Source of the DNA: Clostridia bacterium
GTDB lineage: Bacteria > Bacillota > Clostridia > UMGS1883
Length of the DNA: 38,013 nt
Assembly: GCA_017505525.1 (NCBI GenBank)
Contig: JAFVPB010000022.1
Location: 1-38,013, forward strand
Direction of reading: 5' to 3'
Part shown: positions 25,586-36,312 of the stretch, one piece after another
Position numbering within the stretch: position 1 is the stretch's first letter
Layout of the letters: each line of letters starts with the position of its first letter
Position numbers and translations under genes: made by a program
The notes under the pieces: generated by a model
What the model was told of the DNA's origin: nothing
The model's input: the letters and a program-made list of their open reading frames with translations, nothing else
Database searches by the model: none

Positions 25586-28500
25586 ATGTATAGCCTTTAT
25601 GATAACTTTGTTTCGTGCAATGAAAATAAACAGCCTTATTCCGTAAGGGCGGAAAGGCACACTTTTATCGATAATATGTCGGCATGGGTGGAGGATGGAT
25701 GCTTTAATATGGCATCAATAGGAAACGTGTATATTCTTAATACCCCTGTTTTCACAAAGGGAAGCTTCCGCACAGATTTTAAAATCACATATATGGAGGA
25801 AATCCCCCCGAAATTTACGGTTTTCTTTGCCTATGATGAAAAGACGCGTAAGGGAAAAGGAATAAAGTTTTTCTACGACCTTGATGAAACCGTTAAAATA
25901 TCGCTTGTTGATATAGATTGCAGTTTGCGCCAAATAGAAAAAACTATTGAATATACAAAGAAAAACGCAATAAAGGAAGATACTTTCTATCCGTTTTTAC
26001 TGAATGTCGAAAACAAAAAAGCATTCGGCTCGGTTGCAGGGTTTGAATTTTCTTTTGATGTGGAAAGCACAAAGGGAAGAGTTGCTGTCGAACGTGATAA
26101 CTTTATCGGCGAGCTTAAGCTTGATAGCGTTGCTTTTTCAAGTGATGAAGAATTTAAGCGAAAAACTCTGATGGAAAAGGTTTCTGCCGATATCCCACTT
26201 GTAAACGGCGGAGATATGCCATACCGCGTAAGCTGGGAAATAGATAGAATCGATGAAAAATGCTATCTTACTGCCACTCTCGATGGGGGCACAAGAACGC
26301 GCGAGGTTAACCGCGACGACAGGCCCGGTCAGTACGTAGCAGAACAGGACTGGATGGATACCCCATACGTTGGAATAGGAACTAAAGGCGGGGTTTACCA
26401 TACGTATAAAATGGCAGACGGAGAAAAAGCATTTATCGACCCCAATATTTACTGGGATTGCCAGAAAGCCTTTTTTGGCGATACCGAGCTTCCTATTATA
26501 AACACATATCTAATTCCCGAAAGTTTAGTGAATGATGAAATCGAGCTGATTTTCGGCTATGAAAATCTTTCGTGCTCGGGTTATGCGCCGCAGCAGGGAG
26601 CAAGCGAATTCAGATTTGCAAAAGACGGAAAACTTTTATATTCGGGTGCACCGCTTGACGGACGCGATATTTTCGAGCTTTATTCAAGCGAAAATAAATA
26701 TGCAATGAATTTTATACCTGATGATTGCTACAAAAGGGAAGACGTTGTAAACCATATTAAATACAACCACTACTTTGATGTGGATGAAAATATTGAGTTC
26801 ACTTATGTTTTTAAAACCCGTAAAGATACCGATTTTCTTGAATTTAAAGCAGAGATACTAAATGTTTTTGAATCACAGGTTTTAGAAACGATAACGCCTG
26901 TTATCAGAAAAGAAAAAGGAGATTACGGCTATAACGTTGTAAAGGCAGAATTTAAGGCATCGAAAATGAAAGTGGGAGTTTACAAAACGGCTCTTAACGT
27001 GAAATACGGCGGAAAAGATTATGCGCGCGATATAAAGGCGTTTGAGGTATATAATAAGGACACTGATGAAAACCCTGTTATAGCAAGCGGACTCCCCGTT
27101 CAGTTCTCGATGCCGAACGAACAGAAATGGCTGATGAGAAACGCTTTCGACCTTTGGAATCCTATGCCATCTTGTGATATAGCGCACTACTATAGTTGCG
27201 TTACCGATACACCGATTGAGGCGCAGACAAGAAAAACGTGGCTTCTCACAAAGAAATTCAAAAGGCAGTGGTTCGCGTGGATTTCTTCAAGAACGTGTAA
27301 GGACTGGAGCCTTGATAAGTATACCGACGTGGTAAAAAACTGCGATTATCTTTTTAATTCAATTAATGAAGAAGTTTTAGATTTAAGCCAAAGCACGCTT
27401 TTCCCGATAAGGCAAGACCATTTCGATTACCCCAACTTTATGATGAGGGAAGAGCAGAGAGTTGCAATACTTGATAATTTCCTTCGTGATAATCCTGAAA
27501 TTGCAGAAAAGCTCGATTACAAACCTGGTATGAAATTCACTTTCGACCACTTTGTAAACCTTATGAAGTCTTACCATAGCGAATGGATAGACTATCAGAA
27601 CAAGGCAGGACTCGATATTATACGGGAGCACAATAAAATGATTGAAAAGATTAATCCCGAGGTTAAGCGTGCCGTTTACGGACCTGTTAACGTTTATGTT
27701 ACACCAACACTTACAAACCATTCTATTAAAGCTTACGGCAACAGTGATGCCGATGCTTTGTCGGATGAGGTGTTTACGGGATTTTCAGTGTTTGAAGATT
27801 ATCCGTATGCTTGCTCTTATCAAACGTATAAGGGAGCATTCTGCCTGATGACAATACTTCTTCACTCTCCGCGCCTTACGGTTTATCCCGAGCAGTACAG
27901 CGGAAGCAGGGGAGGGTGTATCGACGGAGCAGTTAAATTTGCCCACGCGCCTATGGGGGCATACGGTATGGAGGACTACTATAATTCAACGCACGCGTTT
28001 GAATATGTGTTTAACACTCCCTACAAACTTAAAGATGGCTTCCATTACTGGAATACCTATGGCTTTCACAGAGGAGCATCATCTCATATGCATCAGCTTG
28101 TGCGCGACTGGAGATATGCAGTGGAGAATAAACCTAAAAAGCCTCTTCGCACAACTGCATTTCTTGCTGAGTATTCTGATTGTGAGGATGAGTTTAAAAT
28201 ATACACTGTCGACAGTTCGAAAAGCTATTGCAAAATGATGAACAGAAGCGAAATGGGGCATGGAGTGTTCTTTGAATGTACAAGAGAATCAGGTCTTTCG
28301 TGCGGGTTTGGTATTAAATACGAATCTCTTGCTAATCTAAAAAGTGACGAGTGCGACCTTATCGTGCTTCCCGGTCTTAAAAATGCACCGCCAGAGGCAG
28401 TGGGCGAAATCCGCCGTCTTTATAACGAGGGCGTAAACCTTATAGCATTTTCAGATGTTACAGGGTTAGAGGACATATTTGGGGTTAAGCATATCGAAAA

Positions 28501-29038
28501 GAAAACACGTATAAACGAAATTATATATAATGGCGAAACAGAATATGTGCGTGAAGAAGATGCACTTTTAATGTATGAACCAGATGGCGCAGAGGTTGTG
28601 ATGAAAACAGATAAAAACGAGCCTGTTATTTTCTCAAATGGAAGATGCGCGCTTGTGAATGCTGATGTAACAAACCTTGGCGAATCTGATTCAAGAGATA
28701 TGTGCCACGCAAAATCGCTTCACGTTGTAGGTTCTCTTATAAGAAAAGCTTTGTCAGAGATTGCCTCTCGTCTTTCTTCACCGATAGTTAAAGGTGAAAA
28801 CGTGGGAACAACGCTTTTTGAAACGGAAGATGGCAGAACAATGCTTCTTGCAATCGACTACACTCCATTTGATAATGCCGAGCATAATATAAAAGAGGCA
28901 GTTATCACAGTAAACGGCAATATAGCAAAAGAAGCAAAGAGCGAAAGAGAGTTATTCGTGGGAAAAAAGAACGGATATGTGAAAGAATTAAGGTTTGATA
29001 TTAAGCCTCATGAATTTGTGTTTGTGGAACTTATATAA
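25586..29038 (+). CDS. 1150-aa unassigned protein, possible glycoside hydrolase
   Basis: I do not recognise the family. There is no signal peptide, so it should be cytoplasmic. By eye it has beta-rich N-terminal regions (about 1-510), an aromatic-rich central part (about 520-860) that could be a TIM barrel, with KRAVYGPVNVYVT near 693 and VYPEQYSGSRGG near 766, then an alpha/beta segment near 915-960 (CDLIVLPGLKNAPPEAVGEI, EGVNLIAFSDVTG) that resembles the amidotransferase-like domain following the barrel in GH42 beta-galactosidases, and a C-terminal beta domain (about 1080-1150). It is co-transcribed with the MFS gene and next to uxuA, so hydrolysis of an imported glycoside or uronide is a reasonable guess. 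Catalytic acids are not identified. GGAGG precedes the start. Confidence 0.5.
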   Translation: MYSLYDNFVSCNENKQPYSVRAERHTFIDNMSAWVEDGCFNMASIGNVYILNTPVFTKGSFRTDFKITYMEEIPPKFTVFFAYDEKTRKGKGIKFFYDLDETVKISLVDIDCSLRQIEKTIEYTKKNAIKEDTFYPFLLNVENKKAFGSVAGFEFSFDVESTKGRVAVERDNFIGELKLDSVAFSSDEEFKRKTLMEKVSADIPLVNGGDMPYRVSWEIDRIDEKCYLTATLDGGTRTREVNRDDRPGQYVAEQDWMDTPYVGIGTKGGVYHTYKMADGEKAFIDPNIYWDCQKAFFGDTELPIINTYLIPESLVNDEIELIFGYENLSCSGYAPQQGASEFRFAKDGKLLYSGAPLDGRDIFELYSSENKYAMNFIPDDCYKREDVVNHIKYNHYFDVDENIEFTYVFKTRKDTDFLEFKAEILNVFESQVLETITPVIRKEKGDYGYNVVKAEFKASKMKVGVYKTALNVKYGGKDYARDIKAFEVYNKDTDENPVIASGLPVQFSMPNEQKWLMRNAFDLWNPMPSCDIAHYYSCVTDTPIEAQTRKTWLLTKKFKRQWFAWISSRTCKDWSLDKYTDVVKNCDYLFNSINEEVLDLSQSTLFPIRQDHFDYPNFMMREEQRVAILDNFLRDNPEIAEKLDYKPGMKFTFDHFVNLMKSYHSEWIDYQNKAGLDIIREHNKMIEKINPEVKRAVYGPVNVYVTPTLTNHSIKAYGNSDADALSDEVFTGFSVFEDYPYACSYQTYKGAFCLMTILLHSPRLTVYPEQYSGSRGGCIDGAVKFAHAPMGAYGMEDYYNSTHAFEYVFNTPYKLKDGFHYWNTYGFHRGASSHMHQLVRDWRYAVENKPKKPLRTTAFLAEYSDCEDEFKIYTVDSSKSYCKMMNRSEMGHGVFFECTRESGLSCGFGIKYESLANLKSDECDLIVLPGLKNAPPEAVGEIRRLYNEGVNLIAFSDVTGLEDIFGVKHIEKKTRINEIIYNGETEYVREEDALLMYEPDGAEVVMKTDKNEPVIFSNGRCALVNADVTNLGESDSRDMCHAKSLHVVGSLIRKALSEIASRLSSPIVKGENVGTTLFETEDGRTMLLAIDYTPFDNAEHNIKEAVITVNGNIAKEAKSERELFVGKKNGYVKELRFDIKPHEFVFVELI

Positions 29039-29348: not shown

Positions 29349-31427
29349 ATGTACAGAACTCTATTTTGTAACGACATTCGTGAAGAACACATCGGAAAAA
29401 CCGTTAAGCTTGCAGGCTGGGTTGATGTTGTTCGTGATCACGGCGGTGTTATTTTTGTGGATATCCGCGACTATACGGGTGTTACACAGGCTGTAATCCA
29501 TAACGAAGAATTATTGAAAAATGTAAACAAGGAAACTGTTATTTCCGTAAGCGGTACTGTAGAAAAGCGCGACGCGGAAACAGTTAACGATAAAATTGCA
29601 ACAGGAAATGTGGAATTAATGGTTGATGAGCTTACAGTTCTTGGAAGAAGCAAGAATATGCTTCCTTTCGATGTGAGAAGTTCGCGCCAGAGTAAGGACG
29701 AATTAAGGCTTAAATACCGTTATTTAGACCTTAGAAATCCCAAGAATCACGAAAATCTTGTTATGCGTTCAAGAATTATCGGCCATTTAAGAAAGAAAAT
29801 GGAAGAAAAGAATTTCCTTGAAATGCAAACACCTATCCTTACGGCTTCTTCACCGGAAGGTGCGCGTGATTTCCTTGTGCCAAGCCGTAAGCATCCGGGC
29901 AAGTTCTATGCACTTCCTCAGGCACCCCAGCAGTTTAAGCAGCTTTTAATGGTATCAGGATTCGACAGATACTTCCAGGTTGCACCTTGCTTCCGTGATG
30001 AAGATGCAAGGGCAGACCGTTCTCCCGGTGAATTCTATCAGCTCGACTTTGAAATGGCTTTTTCTACTCAGGAAGAAGTTTTAGATGTATGTGAAGACGT
30101 TGTACACGACACATTCGTTAAATTCTCGGATAAAAAGGTTACGCCAAAGCCTTTCCGCCGTATTACCTATGCCGATGCTATGATGTATTACGGTTCGGAT
30201 AAGCCCGACCTTCGTAACCCTCTTATTATCTGCGATTTAACTGAGTTTTTCGCTTGTGTTGATTTCCCCGCATTCAAGGGCCGTCCTGTGCGCGGTATTG
30301 TGGCAAACTGTGCAGGTAAGTCAAAGAAATTCTTTGAAGATTCTTTAAAATATGCTATGAGTGATGAAGTAGGCCTTGGCGGTCTTGGTTATATTACTCT
30401 TAAAGAGGGAGTGTTCGCAGGCCCTATCGCAAAGTTCTTAAGCGAAGACCAGAAGAAAGAAATTATATCCCTTACAAAAGTTAAAGAGGGAGAAACACTT
30501 TTCTTCATCTGCGACGAAAAGAAGAACGACACAGAAAAGAAAGCAGGTCTTATCCGTTCGTACCTTGCACGTCCTGACCAGCTCGACCTTATAAAAGACG
30601 ATGCATTTGAATTCTGCTTCGTTGTTGATTTCCCGATGTATGAAATCGATGAGGAAACTGGCGACACAATCTTTACACACAACCCATTCTCTATGCCTCA
30701 GGGAGGAATGGATTCGCTTATAAATAAAGAACCTACAGAGGTACTTGCATATCAGTACGACCTTGTTTGTAACGGTATAGAGCTTGCTTCCGGTGCCGTT
30801 AGAAACCATGATACGGAAATTATGAAAAAGGCGTTTAGGATTGCAGGATACGATGAAGAAGAGCTTAAAAAGCGCTTTAACGCACTCTATAATGCATTCC
30901 AGTATGGTGCACCACCACACGCAGGTATGGCACCAGGTATCGACCGTATGGTAATGCTCCTTACAGACGAAGAGAAAATTCTTGATGTTATTGCATTCCC
31001 CTTAAACGGTAATGCACAGGACCTTCTCCTCGGTGCACCGGGCGAAGTTACAAATCAGCAGCTTGAAGATGTTCACCTTCTTGGAAGCGGCAGTGCACTT
31101 GCTCAAAGAGGCACTCAAAGTGCATCTTCAGGAAGCAAGAATCAGGGCAAACGCTCAACTTTCTCTAATGCTCAGCAGTTAAATCAGCTTGCACTTACAG
31201 AAAAGGAAGAAGAGGTTGTTGAAAAGATTTTTGCTGATATGCATAAAAACGAAGAAATTCTTAAAAACTGCAACACAGAAAACGTTTCCGAAATGGTACA
31301 CGTTATGCAAATGACAAATGTGCTTCGTGAGGACGAACGCAAGCAGCCTTTCTCAAGAGAAAGCTTGCTTGAGGGTGCTCCGGCACGTAACGAAGATAGC
31401 TGGCAAGTGCCAAGACTTGTAAAGTGA
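29349..31427 (+). CDS. aspS: aspartyl-tRNA synthetase fused to GatC
   Basis: A 692-aa fusion. Residues 1 to about 578 are a bacterial AspRS: OB-fold anticodon domain (GKTVKLAGWVDVVRDHGGV), class II motif 2 around CFRDEDARADRSPGEFYQLD, GAD-type insertion, and motif 3 GMAPGIDRMVMLL. A Ser/Gly/Gln-rich linker follows (about 579-605), then a full GatC domain (about 606-692): LNQLALTEKEEEVVEKIF, HVMQMTNVLREDE and SLLEGAPARNEDSWQVP. No separate gatC exists in the window. With the Asn-type T-box and gatA/gatB next, this AspRS is expected to be non-discriminating and to charge tRNA-Asn with Asp. The true start is 29349, after GGAGG; a longer open frame from 29253 runs into the T-box. Confidence 0.93.
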   Translation: MYRTLFCNDIREEHIGKTVKLAGWVDVVRDHGGVIFVDIRDYTGVTQAVIHNEELLKNVNKETVISVSGTVEKRDAETVNDKIATGNVELMVDELTVLGRSKNMLPFDVRSSRQSKDELRLKYRYLDLRNPKNHENLVMRSRIIGHLRKKMEEKNFLEMQTPILTASSPEGARDFLVPSRKHPGKFYALPQAPQQFKQLLMVSGFDRYFQVAPCFRDEDARADRSPGEFYQLDFEMAFSTQEEVLDVCEDVVHDTFVKFSDKKVTPKPFRRITYADAMMYYGSDKPDLRNPLIICDLTEFFACVDFPAFKGRPVRGIVANCAGKSKKFFEDSLKYAMSDEVGLGGLGYITLKEGVFAGPIAKFLSEDQKKEIISLTKVKEGETLFFICDEKKNDTEKKAGLIRSYLARPDQLDLIKDDAFEFCFVVDFPMYEIDEETGDTIFTHNPFSMPQGGMDSLINKEPTEVLAYQYDLVCNGIELASGAVRNHDTEIMKKAFRIAGYDEEELKKRFNALYNAFQYGAPPHAGMAPGIDRMVMLLTDEEKILDVIAFPLNGNAQDLLLGAPGEVTNQQLEDVHLLGSGSALAQRGTQSASSGSKNQGKRSTFSNAQQLNQLALTEKEEEVVEKIFADMHKNEEILKNCNTENVSEMVHVMQMTNVLREDERKQPFSRESLLEGAPARNEDSWQVPRLVK

Positions 31428-31438
31428 GGTGTAGCGTG

Positions 31439-32623
31439 ATGAAATATTATATGGAAGAAATTAATAAAAACGGAAACATAGCCGTTGACGATACTATTTT
31501 AGTTAAAGGCGCAGTAAGTGCGGCAGGATCATATATGCTCGATGGATTCAAGCCACTCTTCAGCGCAGAGGCAGTAACACGCCTTGAAGAAAAAGGCTAT
31601 AGCGTTAAAGGTAAAACACACGTTGGCGAATTCGGCCTTGATTTAGTAGGAGAATTTTCCTACTATGCAGAAAAAACAGAAAAATTATATGGCGCAGCAG
31701 CAGAAGCCGTTAAAGATGGCGATGTTGTAGCAGCTTTAGGCGTAGACGTAAACGGAACAACTCGCAGAGCAGCAGCTCTTTCGGGCGTGGATTTCCTTAA
31801 GCCAACCTATGGTACAGTTTCACGCTATGGAATAATATCAACTGCAGCATCGGGCGAGCAACTTGGTGTTTATGCAAAAGATGCAGATAAGATAAAGGAA
31901 ATTGCAGAAATTATTTCGGGGCACGATGAAAAAGATGGCACAAGTCTTCCTGAAAAGACGTATGCTTATTCAATTAATGAAAGCATAAGCGGAAAGCGCG
32001 TTTGCGTTATTAAAGAGCTTATCGATAAATGCGACGAAGGTGTTAAAGCAAACACTAAGGCATATATAGAAAAGCTTAAGGCTTTAGGCGCTCAGGTTGA
32101 AGAAATTTCATCTGATTTATTTAAAACTGCAAATACTGCATGGCAGATTTTAATGTCGGCAGAAACCTGCAACAACGTTTCTCGTTATGATGGTGTTAAA
32201 TATGGCCATCGCAGTGAAACATATAAAAATATTGATGAACTTTACGTAAATTCAAGAAGTGAAGGATTTAATTTCCTCACAAAGGCAGTTATACTCTACG
32301 GTTCAGATGTTCTTTCAAAGAACCGCTACAACGATTGCTACGATAAATCGCTTCGCGTGCGTCGCGTAGTATATGATGAATTTAAAAAGCTTATGGAAAA
32401 ATACGACTGTGTTTTAACTCCTGTTTTAAGTAAAGCAGAGTATGAAGCATACGATATTTACGAAGCATTTGGTAAGGTTTTTGAAGAAAGTGAATTCACT
32501 TCGATTGCAAACCTTATAGGCGTTCCTGCTCTTATAAGCGACGGTGTTCAGTTTATAGGAAATCACTTTGGCGAAAGCACACTTTTAAGCATTGCACATT
32601 CAGTTGAAAAGGAGGGTAAATAA
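31439..32623 (+). CDS. gatA: GatA homologue lacking the amidase active site
   Basis: Amidase-signature protein clearly related to GatA (LKPTYGTVSRYGIIS, RYDGVKYGHRSE, SRSEGFN, ANLIGVPAL). It has 394 aa against about 485, because the usual first 60 or so residues are absent. By hand alignment the three catalytic residues are replaced: Lys of the IKDNI motif is Asp17 (IAVDDTI), the cis-Ser of GGSSGGS is Leu83 with the whole Gly/Ser loop changed and about nine residues deleted before it, and the Ser of GSDTGGS is Thr107 (GVDVNGT). The reading frame is otherwise clean and conserved, so this looks like a selected pseudoenzyme rather than decay. It begins 11 bases after the aspS::gatC stop, leaving no room for a missing N-terminus. 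Confidence 0.85.
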   Translation: MKYYMEEINKNGNIAVDDTILVKGAVSAAGSYMLDGFKPLFSAEAVTRLEEKGYSVKGKTHVGEFGLDLVGEFSYYAEKTEKLYGAAAEAVKDGDVVAALGVDVNGTTRRAAALSGVDFLKPTYGTVSRYGIISTAASGEQLGVYAKDADKIKEIAEIISGHDEKDGTSLPEKTYAYSINESISGKRVCVIKELIDKCDEGVKANTKAYIEKLKALGAQVEEISSDLFKTANTAWQILMSAETCNNVSRYDGVKYGHRSETYKNIDELYVNSRSEGFNFLTKAVILYGSDVLSKNRYNDCYDKSLRVRRVVYDEFKKLMEKYDCVLTPVLSKAEYEAYDIYEAFGKVFEESEFTSIANLIGVPALISDGVQFIGNHFGESTLLSIAHSVEKEGK

Positions 32624-32634
32624 TATGAATTACG

Positions 32635-34043
32635 AGCTTGTTATTGGTCTTGAAACTCACGTTGAATTAAGCACAGAATCGAAAATTTTCTGTTCGTGCG
32701 GCGGTCACAGTGCGGCTAACGAGCCTAATGATTGTGTTTGCCCTGCGTGCTCGGGTATGCCGGGTATGCTTCCCGTAATGAATAAAAAGGTGGTAGAGCT
32801 TGCAGTTACTGCAGGATTAATGCTTAACTGTGAAATCAGCCGCTACACAACTTTTGATAAGAAAAACTACTATTATCCCGACCTTCCGTGTGCTTATCAG
32901 ATTACACAGCTTAATCACCCGATTTGCACAAACGGCACAGTTCATCTTAAAACCTCAAAAGGGGAGAGAGATGTAAGAATCAAGCAGATTCATATGGAAG
33001 AAGATGCAGGTAAGCTTGTTCACAGCGGAAACTTCTCGTACGTTGATTTCAACCGTACAAGTGTGCCGCTTATCGAAATTGTTACTCAGCCTGATTTCCG
33101 CAGTGCAGAAGAGGTTGTTACCTATCTTTCAAAGCTTAAATCAATGTTCCGCTCGGGCGGAATTTCCGAATGTGAAGAGGGAGCAATGCGTTGCGACGTT
33201 AATATTTCAGTTCGCCCTGAGGGTAGCGAGGAATTTGGCGTTCGTACAGAAATTAAGAATATGAGTTCGTTTGAAGCTATTGAAAAAGCTATTAACTACG
33301 AAGCTCAGCGCCATATTGATGCACTCGAATACGAAACGGAAGAGCTTGTTCAGGAAACAAGAAGATTTGACGATGCAAGCGGAAAAACATTTGCTATGCG
33401 TAACAAGGAAACAGAGGCAGACTACCGCTATTTCCCCGATGCAAACCTTATGCCTATTATTATCGACGACGAGTGGCTTGAAGAAATTAAAAAGAACAAG
33501 CCTGTAGCAATCGACGATAAAGCAGATAAATACCGTGAAGAGGGAATTTCCGAAAAAGAAATCGATATGATTCTTCAAAGCCAGAAAATAGGAACTCTTC
33601 TTGATGAAACAATAGCACTCGGTTGCAATCCAAAGGATACTGCAGCATGGATTCTTACCGACTGTGCAGGTATTCTTCGTAAAGATGGAAAGACTATGGA
33701 AGACCTTTCGGTTACTCCCGAAAAGCTTTCTTCTATTATTAAAATGGTTGAAAGCGGAAGCATTAACCGTAATGCAGGTAAGAAAATTCTTATTGCAGTA
33801 GTAGAAAGCAATGTCGACCCTGTTGAATACTGCAAAGCCCAGGGGCTTGACAAAAAGGTTGATACAGCAGCAATCGGTGCCGTGCTTGATAGCGTGCTCG
33901 CTGCAAATGAGCAGGCAGTAGCCGACTACAAAGGTGGTAAGGTTAAGGCATTCCAGGCGCTTTTCGGTGCTTGTATGCGCGAGCTTAAAGGCGCAGGCGA
34001 TCCGCAGATGATTAAAGAGGCACTTGAAGAAAAACTTAAATAA
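32635..34043 (+). CDS. gatB: Asp-tRNA(Asn)/Glu-tRNA(Gln) amidotransferase subunit B
   Basis: Phosphorylates the side chain of Asp or Glu on tRNA and transfers ammonia to it. MNYELVIGLETHVELST starts the kinase/cradle domain. The zinc site is FCSCGG...CVCPACSGMPG. YYYPDLPCAYQITQ, VRIKQIHMEEDAGK, DFNRTSVPLIEIVT, RCDVNISVRP, RTEIKNMSSF and DYRYFPDANL are conserved active-site blocks. The C-terminal helical and YqeY-like tail domains are present (about 300-470). It appears fully intact, in contrast to its GatA partner. The start at 32635 is taken where the family begins, after GGAGG (the open frame from 32592 overlaps gatA). Confidence 0.95.
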
Positions 34044-34118: not shown

Positions 34119-35147
34119 ATGAAAGAAATATTAATAATTCCTGTTGGAGGAACTATCTGCACATCGATGAGCACCGAGGGAACATTGAAGATAGACGGAA
34201 AAGCGGGGGGCTTACTCGTGGAAAACTATCTTAAAAGCGATTCTCCGTACACAGATGACGTGAACTTTACTCTGGCGGAAAATCTTTATATTCTCAGCGA
34301 GAATATGACGGTTGAAAAATGGAACTTAATAATTGAAGCTTATAGAAAGTATACCTGTCAAAAAGTGTATGACGGAGTTATAATTGCTCATGGAACAGAT
34401 AGCTTAGCATATAGTGCGGCGCTGTTTTCAGTTGTTCTTGAAAATACAAAAACGCCCGTATTCTTTGTTTCGAGTAATGAAAGACTTGAAAGCGCGCGTG
34501 CAAACGGAAACGATAATTTCCGTTGTGCGGTAGAGTGCATCGCAGAAAATATTACGCCTGATGTTTATGTGCCGTATAAGAATTTATCGGATGGGAAAAT
34601 GCTTTTGCACCGTGGAAGAACTATAGAACAGTGCAAAAACTATTCGGAAGATTTTTACAGCCGCGGAAGTATCGATATTTCAGAGGTATCAGATTTAAGC
34701 ACGATTGAAAAAAGGGTAAGTAAAAACAGTGTTTCCATTTACGGAGATTGGCTTCTTAAAAACTGCGTTCTGATGATAGAACCTTACGTTGGCGTAAATT
34801 ACGATGCATATGATTATTCTAAATTTTCAGCAGTGCTTCACGGAACGTATCACTCAGGAACGGCTTGCAGTGAAAAAAGTAAGCATTGGGACAGCTACGG
34901 AAGAAACTCTGTGCTTCATATGATAGATATGTGTATTGATAAAGATATAGATGTTTATTTTTCTCCTGCAAGGTTAGTTGGCGAACTTTACGAAACTGTT
35001 CCAACTATTAAAAATCACAGGACAGGCGAGGCTGATGTGAATTTTATGTATGGAGAAACGAAAGAATATATCTATGCAAAGCTTGTTGTGGCATATTCGG
35101 TTTTTAATGATAAAGAAAAAATAAAGAGTTTTATGGAAGTGAAATAA
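34119..35147 (+). CDS. divergent asparaginase / GatD-like protein
   Basis: A 342-aa member of the asparaginase-glutaminase fold. The nucleophile Thr is in PVGGTI (Thr12), SENMTVEKW matches the SSNMTPEDW block, the second triad pair is in AHGTDS (Thr93-Asp94), and ESARANGNDNF matches the DGPxNL region. The usual catalytic Lys, aligned without gaps against the AnsA RGNRTTK block, falls on Glu170 in RGRTIEQ. The activity is therefore uncertain. It may be an asparaginase with altered chemistry, an amide-binding protein, or an ammonia source for the GatB complex encoded just upstream. It starts 75 bases after gatB, behind a leaky-looking terminator, and ends one base before the AlaX gene. Confidence 0.8.
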   Translation: MKEILIIPVGGTICTSMSTEGTLKIDGKAGGLLVENYLKSDSPYTDDVNFTLAENLYILSENMTVEKWNLIIEAYRKYTCQKVYDGVIIAHGTDSLAYSAALFSVVLENTKTPVFFVSSNERLESARANGNDNFRCAVECIAENITPDVYVPYKNLSDGKMLLHRGRTIEQCKNYSEDFYSRGSIDISEVSDLSTIEKRVSKNSVSIYGDWLLKNCVLMIEPYVGVNYDAYDYSKFSAVLHGTYHSGTACSEKSKHWDSYGRNSVLHMIDMCIDKDIDVYFSPARLVGELYETVPTIKNHRTGEADVNFMYGETKEYIYAKLVVAYSVFNDKEKIKSFMEVK

Positions 35148-35148
35148 A

Positions 35149-36312
35149 ATGACAAAAAGATTGTATGAAGAAAATTCATATATTAAAGAATTTGAAGCCA
35201 TCGTTATATCGTGTGAAAAAGACGAAGATTATTATAATGTTGTGCTTAATCAAACGGCGTTTTTCCCCGAGGGTGGCGGACAAAAGAGTGATGTTGGATG
35301 CTTGGATGATAGCAAGGTAGTGGAAGTTATCGCTAAAGATGACCATATCATTCACAAAACCACAAAGCCTTTTGAAGCAGAAAGCATAGTCAAGGGAAAG
35401 GTGGACTTTGAAGTTCGCTATAAAAGAATGCAAAACCACACGGCAGAGCATATGGTTTCGGGAATAGTGCACTCGCTCTATGGCTACACAAATGTTGGTT
35501 TTCATATGAGCGAAAACAGTATGCGCGTTGATTTTGATGGGGAATTAAAAAAAGAAGATATTGAAAAGGTAGAGCTTTTAGCTAATAAAGCCGTTTGGGA
35601 AAATCTTGATGTATCTGTTCTTTTCCCAAGTGCACAGGAAGCAGAAAAAATTGACTACAGAAGCAAGCTTGAAATTCTTTTTGGATTGCGTCTTGTGAAA
35701 ATCGGCGACCTCGATTGTTGCGCCTGCTGTGCACCGCATGTTAACAAAACAGGCGAGGTTGGATTAATCAAGATAATTGATTTTACACCTTATAAAAAAG
35801 GCACAAGAATAGAAATGGTTGCAGGAATTGATGCCTTTTATGACTATACAAAAATAAATAATGAAAACAAAAAGCTTATGGGAGCTTTATCAGCACCAAG
35901 AAATGCTCTTTTCGATGCCGTAAATCATTTGAGTGAAACCATAGCGCTTCTTACAAGAGAGAAAAACATTCTTTCAAAAGAGCTGGCTCTTTACAAGTTA
36001 AACCTTATTGCAATCAATAATAATGCTTATGCCTTTGGCGAAGGTTTTTCACACGATGATTTAAGATATGCTTCAAACAAGTTTGTGGAAGAGGGAAGAG
36101 ATATTTGTGTGCTTTTCTCGAAAATGGAAAGCGGGGAGTATTCTTATGTGGTTAACAGTAATAACATAGATGTAACTCCTATGGTTAAAACGATGAATGA
36201 AGCATTTTCCGGTCGCGGAGGAGGAAAAGGAAGCTATGCACAGGGAAAAATTTCTGCGGATGAAAAGATGATTGAAGATTACATTAAAAATGCACTTAAA
36301 GAGTGGAAATAA
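35149..36312 (+). CDS. AlaX-type alanyl-tRNA editing protein
   Basis: A free-standing homologue of the AlaRS editing domain, expected to clear Ser or Gly from tRNA-Ala. QTAFFPEGGGQKSD begins the editing fold. The zinc ligands are HTAEH (residues about 98-102) and the late CCACCAPH, giving the HxxxH...CxxxH pattern. The C-terminal half (about 245-387) has a coiled region and then GRGGGKGSYAQGK, which marks a DHHA1 domain, so this is the long AlaX form. Its one-base spacing from the asparaginase-like gene shows co-transcription. Both deal with amino acid or aminoacyl-tRNA quality, which fits the preceding transamidation operon. Confidence 0.88.
   Translation: MTKRLYEENSYIKEFEAIVISCEKDEDYYNVVLNQTAFFPEGGGQKSDVGCLDDSKVVEVIAKDDHIIHKTTKPFEAESIVKGKVDFEVRYKRMQNHTAEHMVSGIVHSLYGYTNVGFHMSENSMRVDFDGELKKEDIEKVELLANKAVWENLDVSVLFPSAQEAEKIDYRSKLEILFGLRLVKIGDLDCCACCAPHVNKTGEVGLIKIIDFTPYKKGTRIEMVAGIDAFYDYTKINNENKKLMGALSAPRNALFDAVNHLSETIALLTREKNILSKELALYKLNLIAINNNAYAFGEGFSHDDLRYASNKFVEEGRDICVLFSKMESGEYSYVVNSNNIDVTPMVKTMNEAFSGRGGGKGSYAQGKISADEKMIEDYIKNALKEWK

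Follow-up and report, generated by a model that had tools for sequence, protein, structure and literature searches.

A conserved GatCAB operon of Clostridia encodes a GatA that has lost its glutaminase residues

The amidotransferase route to Asn-tRNA is known as a glutamine-based chemistry in which an ammonia tunnel provides the coupling. An operon on contig JAFVPB010000022.1 of a member of the Clostridia (a stretch of 38,013 nucleotides, referred to here as the window) raises the question of how this route could operate with a GatA that appears to have lost its active site. The genes concerned are as follows.

29349 to 31427, + strand: aspS::gatC fusion (aspartyl-tRNA synthetase [AspRS] with a C-terminal GatC), assigned by profile scores
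31439 to 32623, + strand: gatA pseudoamidase, 394 aa, assigned by alignments to solved GatA structures and by a 12-genome family
32625 to 34043, + strand: gatB, motifs intact (565 bits; cut-off, 338)
34119 to 35147, + strand: asparaginase/GatD-like protein, 342 aa, assigned by profile search, clade, and signature
35149 to 36312, + strand: AlaX-like alanyl-tRNA editing protein (HTAEH and CCAPH zinc motifs)

The GatCAB gene set (i.e., gatC, gatA, and gatB encoded together, with intact GatB motifs) is thus present in the window. The fusion gene scored 738 bits against the aspS equivalog and 50.7 bits against the gatC model TIGR00135 (cut-off, 47.1), and its product is likely a nondiscriminating AspRS.

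The gatA gene is a single uninterrupted open reading frame that starts at the ATG at position 31439. Homology to the amidase fold was evident (PF01425, 167 bits; solved GatAs, E value of about 1e-56), and the score against the gatA equivalog TIGR00132 (253 bits) was below the curated cut-off (481 bits). We aligned the protein with the GatAs of S. aureus (2df4 chain A), T. maritima, and A. aeolicus. The alignments began at residues 63 to 77 of the solved chains; therefore, about 60 N-terminal residues are missing from the window GatA. The functional positions were occupied as follows (all by alignment).

31487 to 31489, + strand: Asp17 codon at the position of the catalytic Lys79
31685 to 31690, + strand: Leu83/Tyr84 in place of the cis-Ser loop (GGSSGGS)
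31757 to 31759, + strand: Thr107 codon at the position of the nucleophile Ser178
32288 to 32290, + strand: Val284 codon at the position of Arg358, which binds the glutamine carboxylate
32489 to 32491, + strand: Ser351 codon at the position of Asp425, which binds glutamine

The catalytic set of Lys, cis-Ser, and Ser is therefore missing. The loop carrying cis-Ser154 is either deleted or replaced by KLYGAAA, the exact position of the gap being uncertain. Also missing is a C-terminal loop, SVPCG..LPIG, some 10 residues long. Given the replacement of Arg358 and Asp425, the glutamine-binding residues are also lost. In yeast GatFAB, the glutamine-holding residues next to S154, cis-S130, and K52 are D418 and R334 (PMC4027206); guided by the alignment, we take these two to be D425 and R358 here. 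These results upheld the original prediction, which had claimed a clean frame, the absence of about 60 N-terminal residues, Asp17 and Thr107 at the Lys and Ser positions, and the loss of the cis-Ser loop around Leu83. No Lys-Ser-Ser triad at shifted positions was found in the alignments, and neither a second intact gatA nor any other amidase-family gene was detected in the genome carrying the window (G000; a draft, 95.4% complete). The residue losses are shown directly; that this GatA should neither bind nor hydrolyze glutamine is inferred from sequence alone, glutamine-dependent amidation being a matter for biochemistry. Single-sequence AlphaFold models were uninformative (mean pLDDT of 37 for GatA and 32 for the asparaginase-like protein).

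The same loss was shared by homologs, as the original prediction had asked. Such GatAs (referred to here as dead GatAs) were encoded in 12 of 391 genomes of the class, between aspS/gatC and gatB, with 46 to 72% identity to the window GatA. They matched the window GatA at E values of 1e-70 or lower, and intact GatAs of its own family matched at 8e-65 or weaker. In an alignment that also included eight live GatAs, the Lys position was Asp in 11 of the 12 dead GatAs and Glu in the other one, the cis-Ser loop was missing from all 12, and neither Arg358 nor Asp425 was retained in any of them; the nucleophile position varied (T, A, S, or F), with Ser kept in three. All five residues were retained in the eight live GatAs. 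Losses shared among 12 genomes at positions kept in live GatAs do not arise by chance. Among the closest pairs, dN/dS of gatA was about 0.07 to 0.16, with dS near saturation. Dead gatA is thus under purifying selection and not decaying; its wide sharing together with the low dN/dS ruled out a pseudogene. The GatBs from these operons formed a single clade (100/100 support) in which G306 was outermost, followed by G123, and the GatB motifs GLETH, HMEEDAGK, RCDVN, and RTEIKN were conserved throughout it. In the full-text literature that we searched, which mostly excluded subscription papers, no GatCAB whose GatA is dead was described, which supports novelty only weakly.

What, then, would a GatCAB with such a GatA be for? 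We looked for asparaginyl-tRNA synthetase (AsnRS) and for other amidase-family genes in 10 of the 12 dead-GatA genomes. No genome contained an AsnRS above the cut-off or another amidase-family gene (0/10 for both). A protein of G078 with partial similarity to AsnRS was rejected as a candidate, being an archaeal-type AspRS according to NCBIfam. Because the dead-GatA genomes are drafts, some only 65 to 80% complete, any single absence is weak. The mirror pattern was observed in the genus of the window, in which six other species have AsnRS and neither GatA nor GatB. Glutaminyl-tRNA synthetase (GlnRS) exceeded the cut-off in the genome of the window and in seven other dead-GatA genomes and was partial in G153; it was not seen in G202, G274, or G290. 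Since the genome of the window has GlnRS, tRNA(Asn) is the gap to be filled. The one tRNA-Asn that we read, adjoining the operon in G123 (i.e., not from the genome of the window), has U1 and A72; a U1-A72 pair has been reported as required for bacterial GatCAB (PMC4206432). Given the lack of both an intact amidase-family gene and AsnRS in the 10 genomes, these bacteria probably obtain Asn-tRNA through the complex. We consider it very likely that GatA is dead and that the complex is nevertheless functional and supplies Asn-tRNA, a joint claim that rests on neither structure nor biochemistry.

The original prediction had also asked whether the loss is always linked to the aspS::gatC fusion. It is not: in G123 and G306, GatA is dead and a stop splits aspS and gatC into two genes, and in genomes of the same family the fusion also adjoins a live GatA. 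A GatA can therefore be dead without the fusion and live with it. In the two outermost members (L107:779-2806 and L143:457-2559), a single in-frame stop alone divides aspS from gatC, suggesting that the fusion arose later in the clade through loss of the stop.

The operon moves horizontally between families. Its AspRS was 85 to 93% identical between genomes of different families (73 to 76% for G123), above the identity of the housekeeping AspRSs of the same pairs (mostly 61 to 67%; 77% for G202 with G160). No carrier of the operon was found in plasmid and viral collections. The genome of the window has a second, ordinary AspRS on contig C56, which is 86% identical to the AspRS of its genus. 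An archaeal-type AspRS (L129:1492-2826; contig C48) is present in the dead-GatA genome G078, in which no ordinary bacterial AspRS was seen besides that of the operon. The window is not a contaminant of its bin, a possibility ruled out by a tetranucleotide signature nearest that of the other G000 contigs and by the housekeeping genes that the contig carries (rpsB, tsf, leuS, tig, clpP, and clpX). Of the other genes, the AlaX-like gene also lies close to the operon in G202, G078, and G182. A gene at positions 25586 to 29038 encodes a 1,150-residue protein without a Pfam match at 1e-5; it adjoins a transporter and a D-mannonate dehydratase and perhaps encodes a sugar-degrading enzyme.

We propose that the operon encodes a glutaminase-free, tRNA-dependent amidotransferase that would produce Asn-tRNA(Asn). 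The AspRS::GatC fusion would load tRNA(Asn) with Asp, and GatB would phosphorylate and then amidate the Asp on tRNA(Asn). GatA would be a structural subunit, probably joining GatB and GatC and lining the path of ammonia. The ammonia would not come from hydrolysis of glutamine by GatA; free ammonium would reach GatB from solution, perhaps via the side of GatA that lacks the active-site loops. That the complex assembles, that tRNA(Asn) is its substrate, and that ammonium is its donor are all inferences. Free ammonium as the main donor is an inference that we favor only slightly, and the complete scheme (i.e., a glutaminase-free complex fed by free ammonium) is as likely to fail as to hold.

Three known systems bear on this proposal. 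Bacterial GatCAB with a nondiscriminating AspRS has the same genes (GatB and GatC being clearly homologous) and the same order of reactions; unlike it, the window system has a GatA without, as judged by its residues, glutamine binding or hydrolysis, without the N-terminal segment, and without two active-site loops. In archaeal GatDE, a kinase-amidase of the GatB/GatE type is likewise encoded with an asparaginase-family protein near GatD. However, the window system retains GatA and GatC, its GatB scores as GatB and not as GatE, its GatD-like protein lacks both the N-terminal domain and the catalytic Lys, and its predicted substrate is tRNA(Asn), in contrast to the Glu-tRNA(Gln) of GatDE. Yeast mitochondrial GatFAB can amidate using NH4Cl, and truncation of GatF weakens its glutaminase while NH4Cl use is retained or raised (PMC4027206). 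This is a precedent for ammonium-fed amidation, although the truncation is a laboratory change in an accessory subunit and the yeast GatA keeps its triad.

The strongest rival to free ammonium is supply by the asparaginase/GatD-like protein, which would hydrolyze glutamine or asparagine and feed GatB, with the dead GatA as an adaptor. The complex would then be a bacterial counterpart to archaeal GatDE, with an asparaginase-type protein replacing the amidase. Several observations favor this rival. Archaeal GatDs ranked first among solved structures in the profile search. The gene lies directly 3' of gatB in the window and in seven genomes in all, and 5' of aspS in two (G182 and G290). Ten orthologs, all from dead-GatA genomes, form a clade (100/99 support) that is present in 10 of the 12 dead-GatA genomes and in none of the 379 others; because these genes move together, the nominal P value (3e-18) makes the evidence look stronger than it is. 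Thr12, Ser60, Thr93, and Asp94 are invariant in eight aligned orthologs. Such conservation of a neighbor suggests a dedicated partner instead of free ammonium.

Against this rival, the active site of type I asparaginases and GatD is incomplete: although Thr12, Thr93, and Asp94 are present, the position of the catalytic Lys holds Gln171 in the window protein and Gln in 10 of 10 orthologs, followed directly by a clade-specific Cys. (Thr168 was rejected as the Lys position, since a wider alignment with true asparaginases gave Gln171.) The match to GatD begins at about GatD residue 93, the N-terminal part being missing, and the protein has diverged faster than GatA or GatB (median identity of 52% versus 68 and 79%, respectively). 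No clade member was seen in G274, the gene is unlinked to the operon in G160, and in G306 the only such protein belongs to a related group. In a wider asparaginase-like subfamily of the class (relatives L075 to L096), the two Thr residues and the Asp are kept and the catalytic Lys is missing, mostly with an H-S/C-G/A motif close to the C terminus. Compared with free ammonium, supply by the GatD-like protein is better supported by genomics and less well by chemistry; we lean mildly against it, and whether the protein has enzyme activity is open. The original prediction had offered two sources of ammonia, free ammonium or another amidase. Both are still in play, and this gene, which that prediction did not mention, is the best candidate for the second. 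A bolder reading is also possible, namely, a mixed-type amidotransferase with GatA as a scaffold and a Lys-less, GatD-like ammonia supply, encoded by a mobile operon that replaces asparaginyl-tRNA synthetase.

It is unlikely that another glutaminase or glutamine amidotransferase subunit of the host docks on GatB or GatA. Our genome-wide search covered the amidase family alone and does not exclude such a protein; however, the operon contains no such gene, and only the asparaginase-like gene is shared often enough among the neighborhoods. The view that we are looking at an assembly artifact or at a remnant, decaying or dispensable, with AsnRS missed, draws on the draft state of the genome and on the presence of AsnRS in relatives of the genus, but it is very unlikely given the sharing of the dead protein by 12 genomes, the low dN/dS, the placement of the contig by signature and housekeeping genes, and the lack of AsnRS in all 10 genomes searched.

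The reading of this GatA as dead has thus survived the sequence checks, and the nitrogen for protein asparagine would have to derive from a source other than the GatA subunit. These bacteria seemingly rely on amidation for the asparagine of their proteins after losing the glutamine half of the system, which makes the dead GatA a natural test of the roles of GatA beyond hydrolysis. The operon points to an ammonia-fed or partner-swapped making of a core aminoacyl-tRNA, by a central system that passes between families and apparently substitutes for AsnRS.
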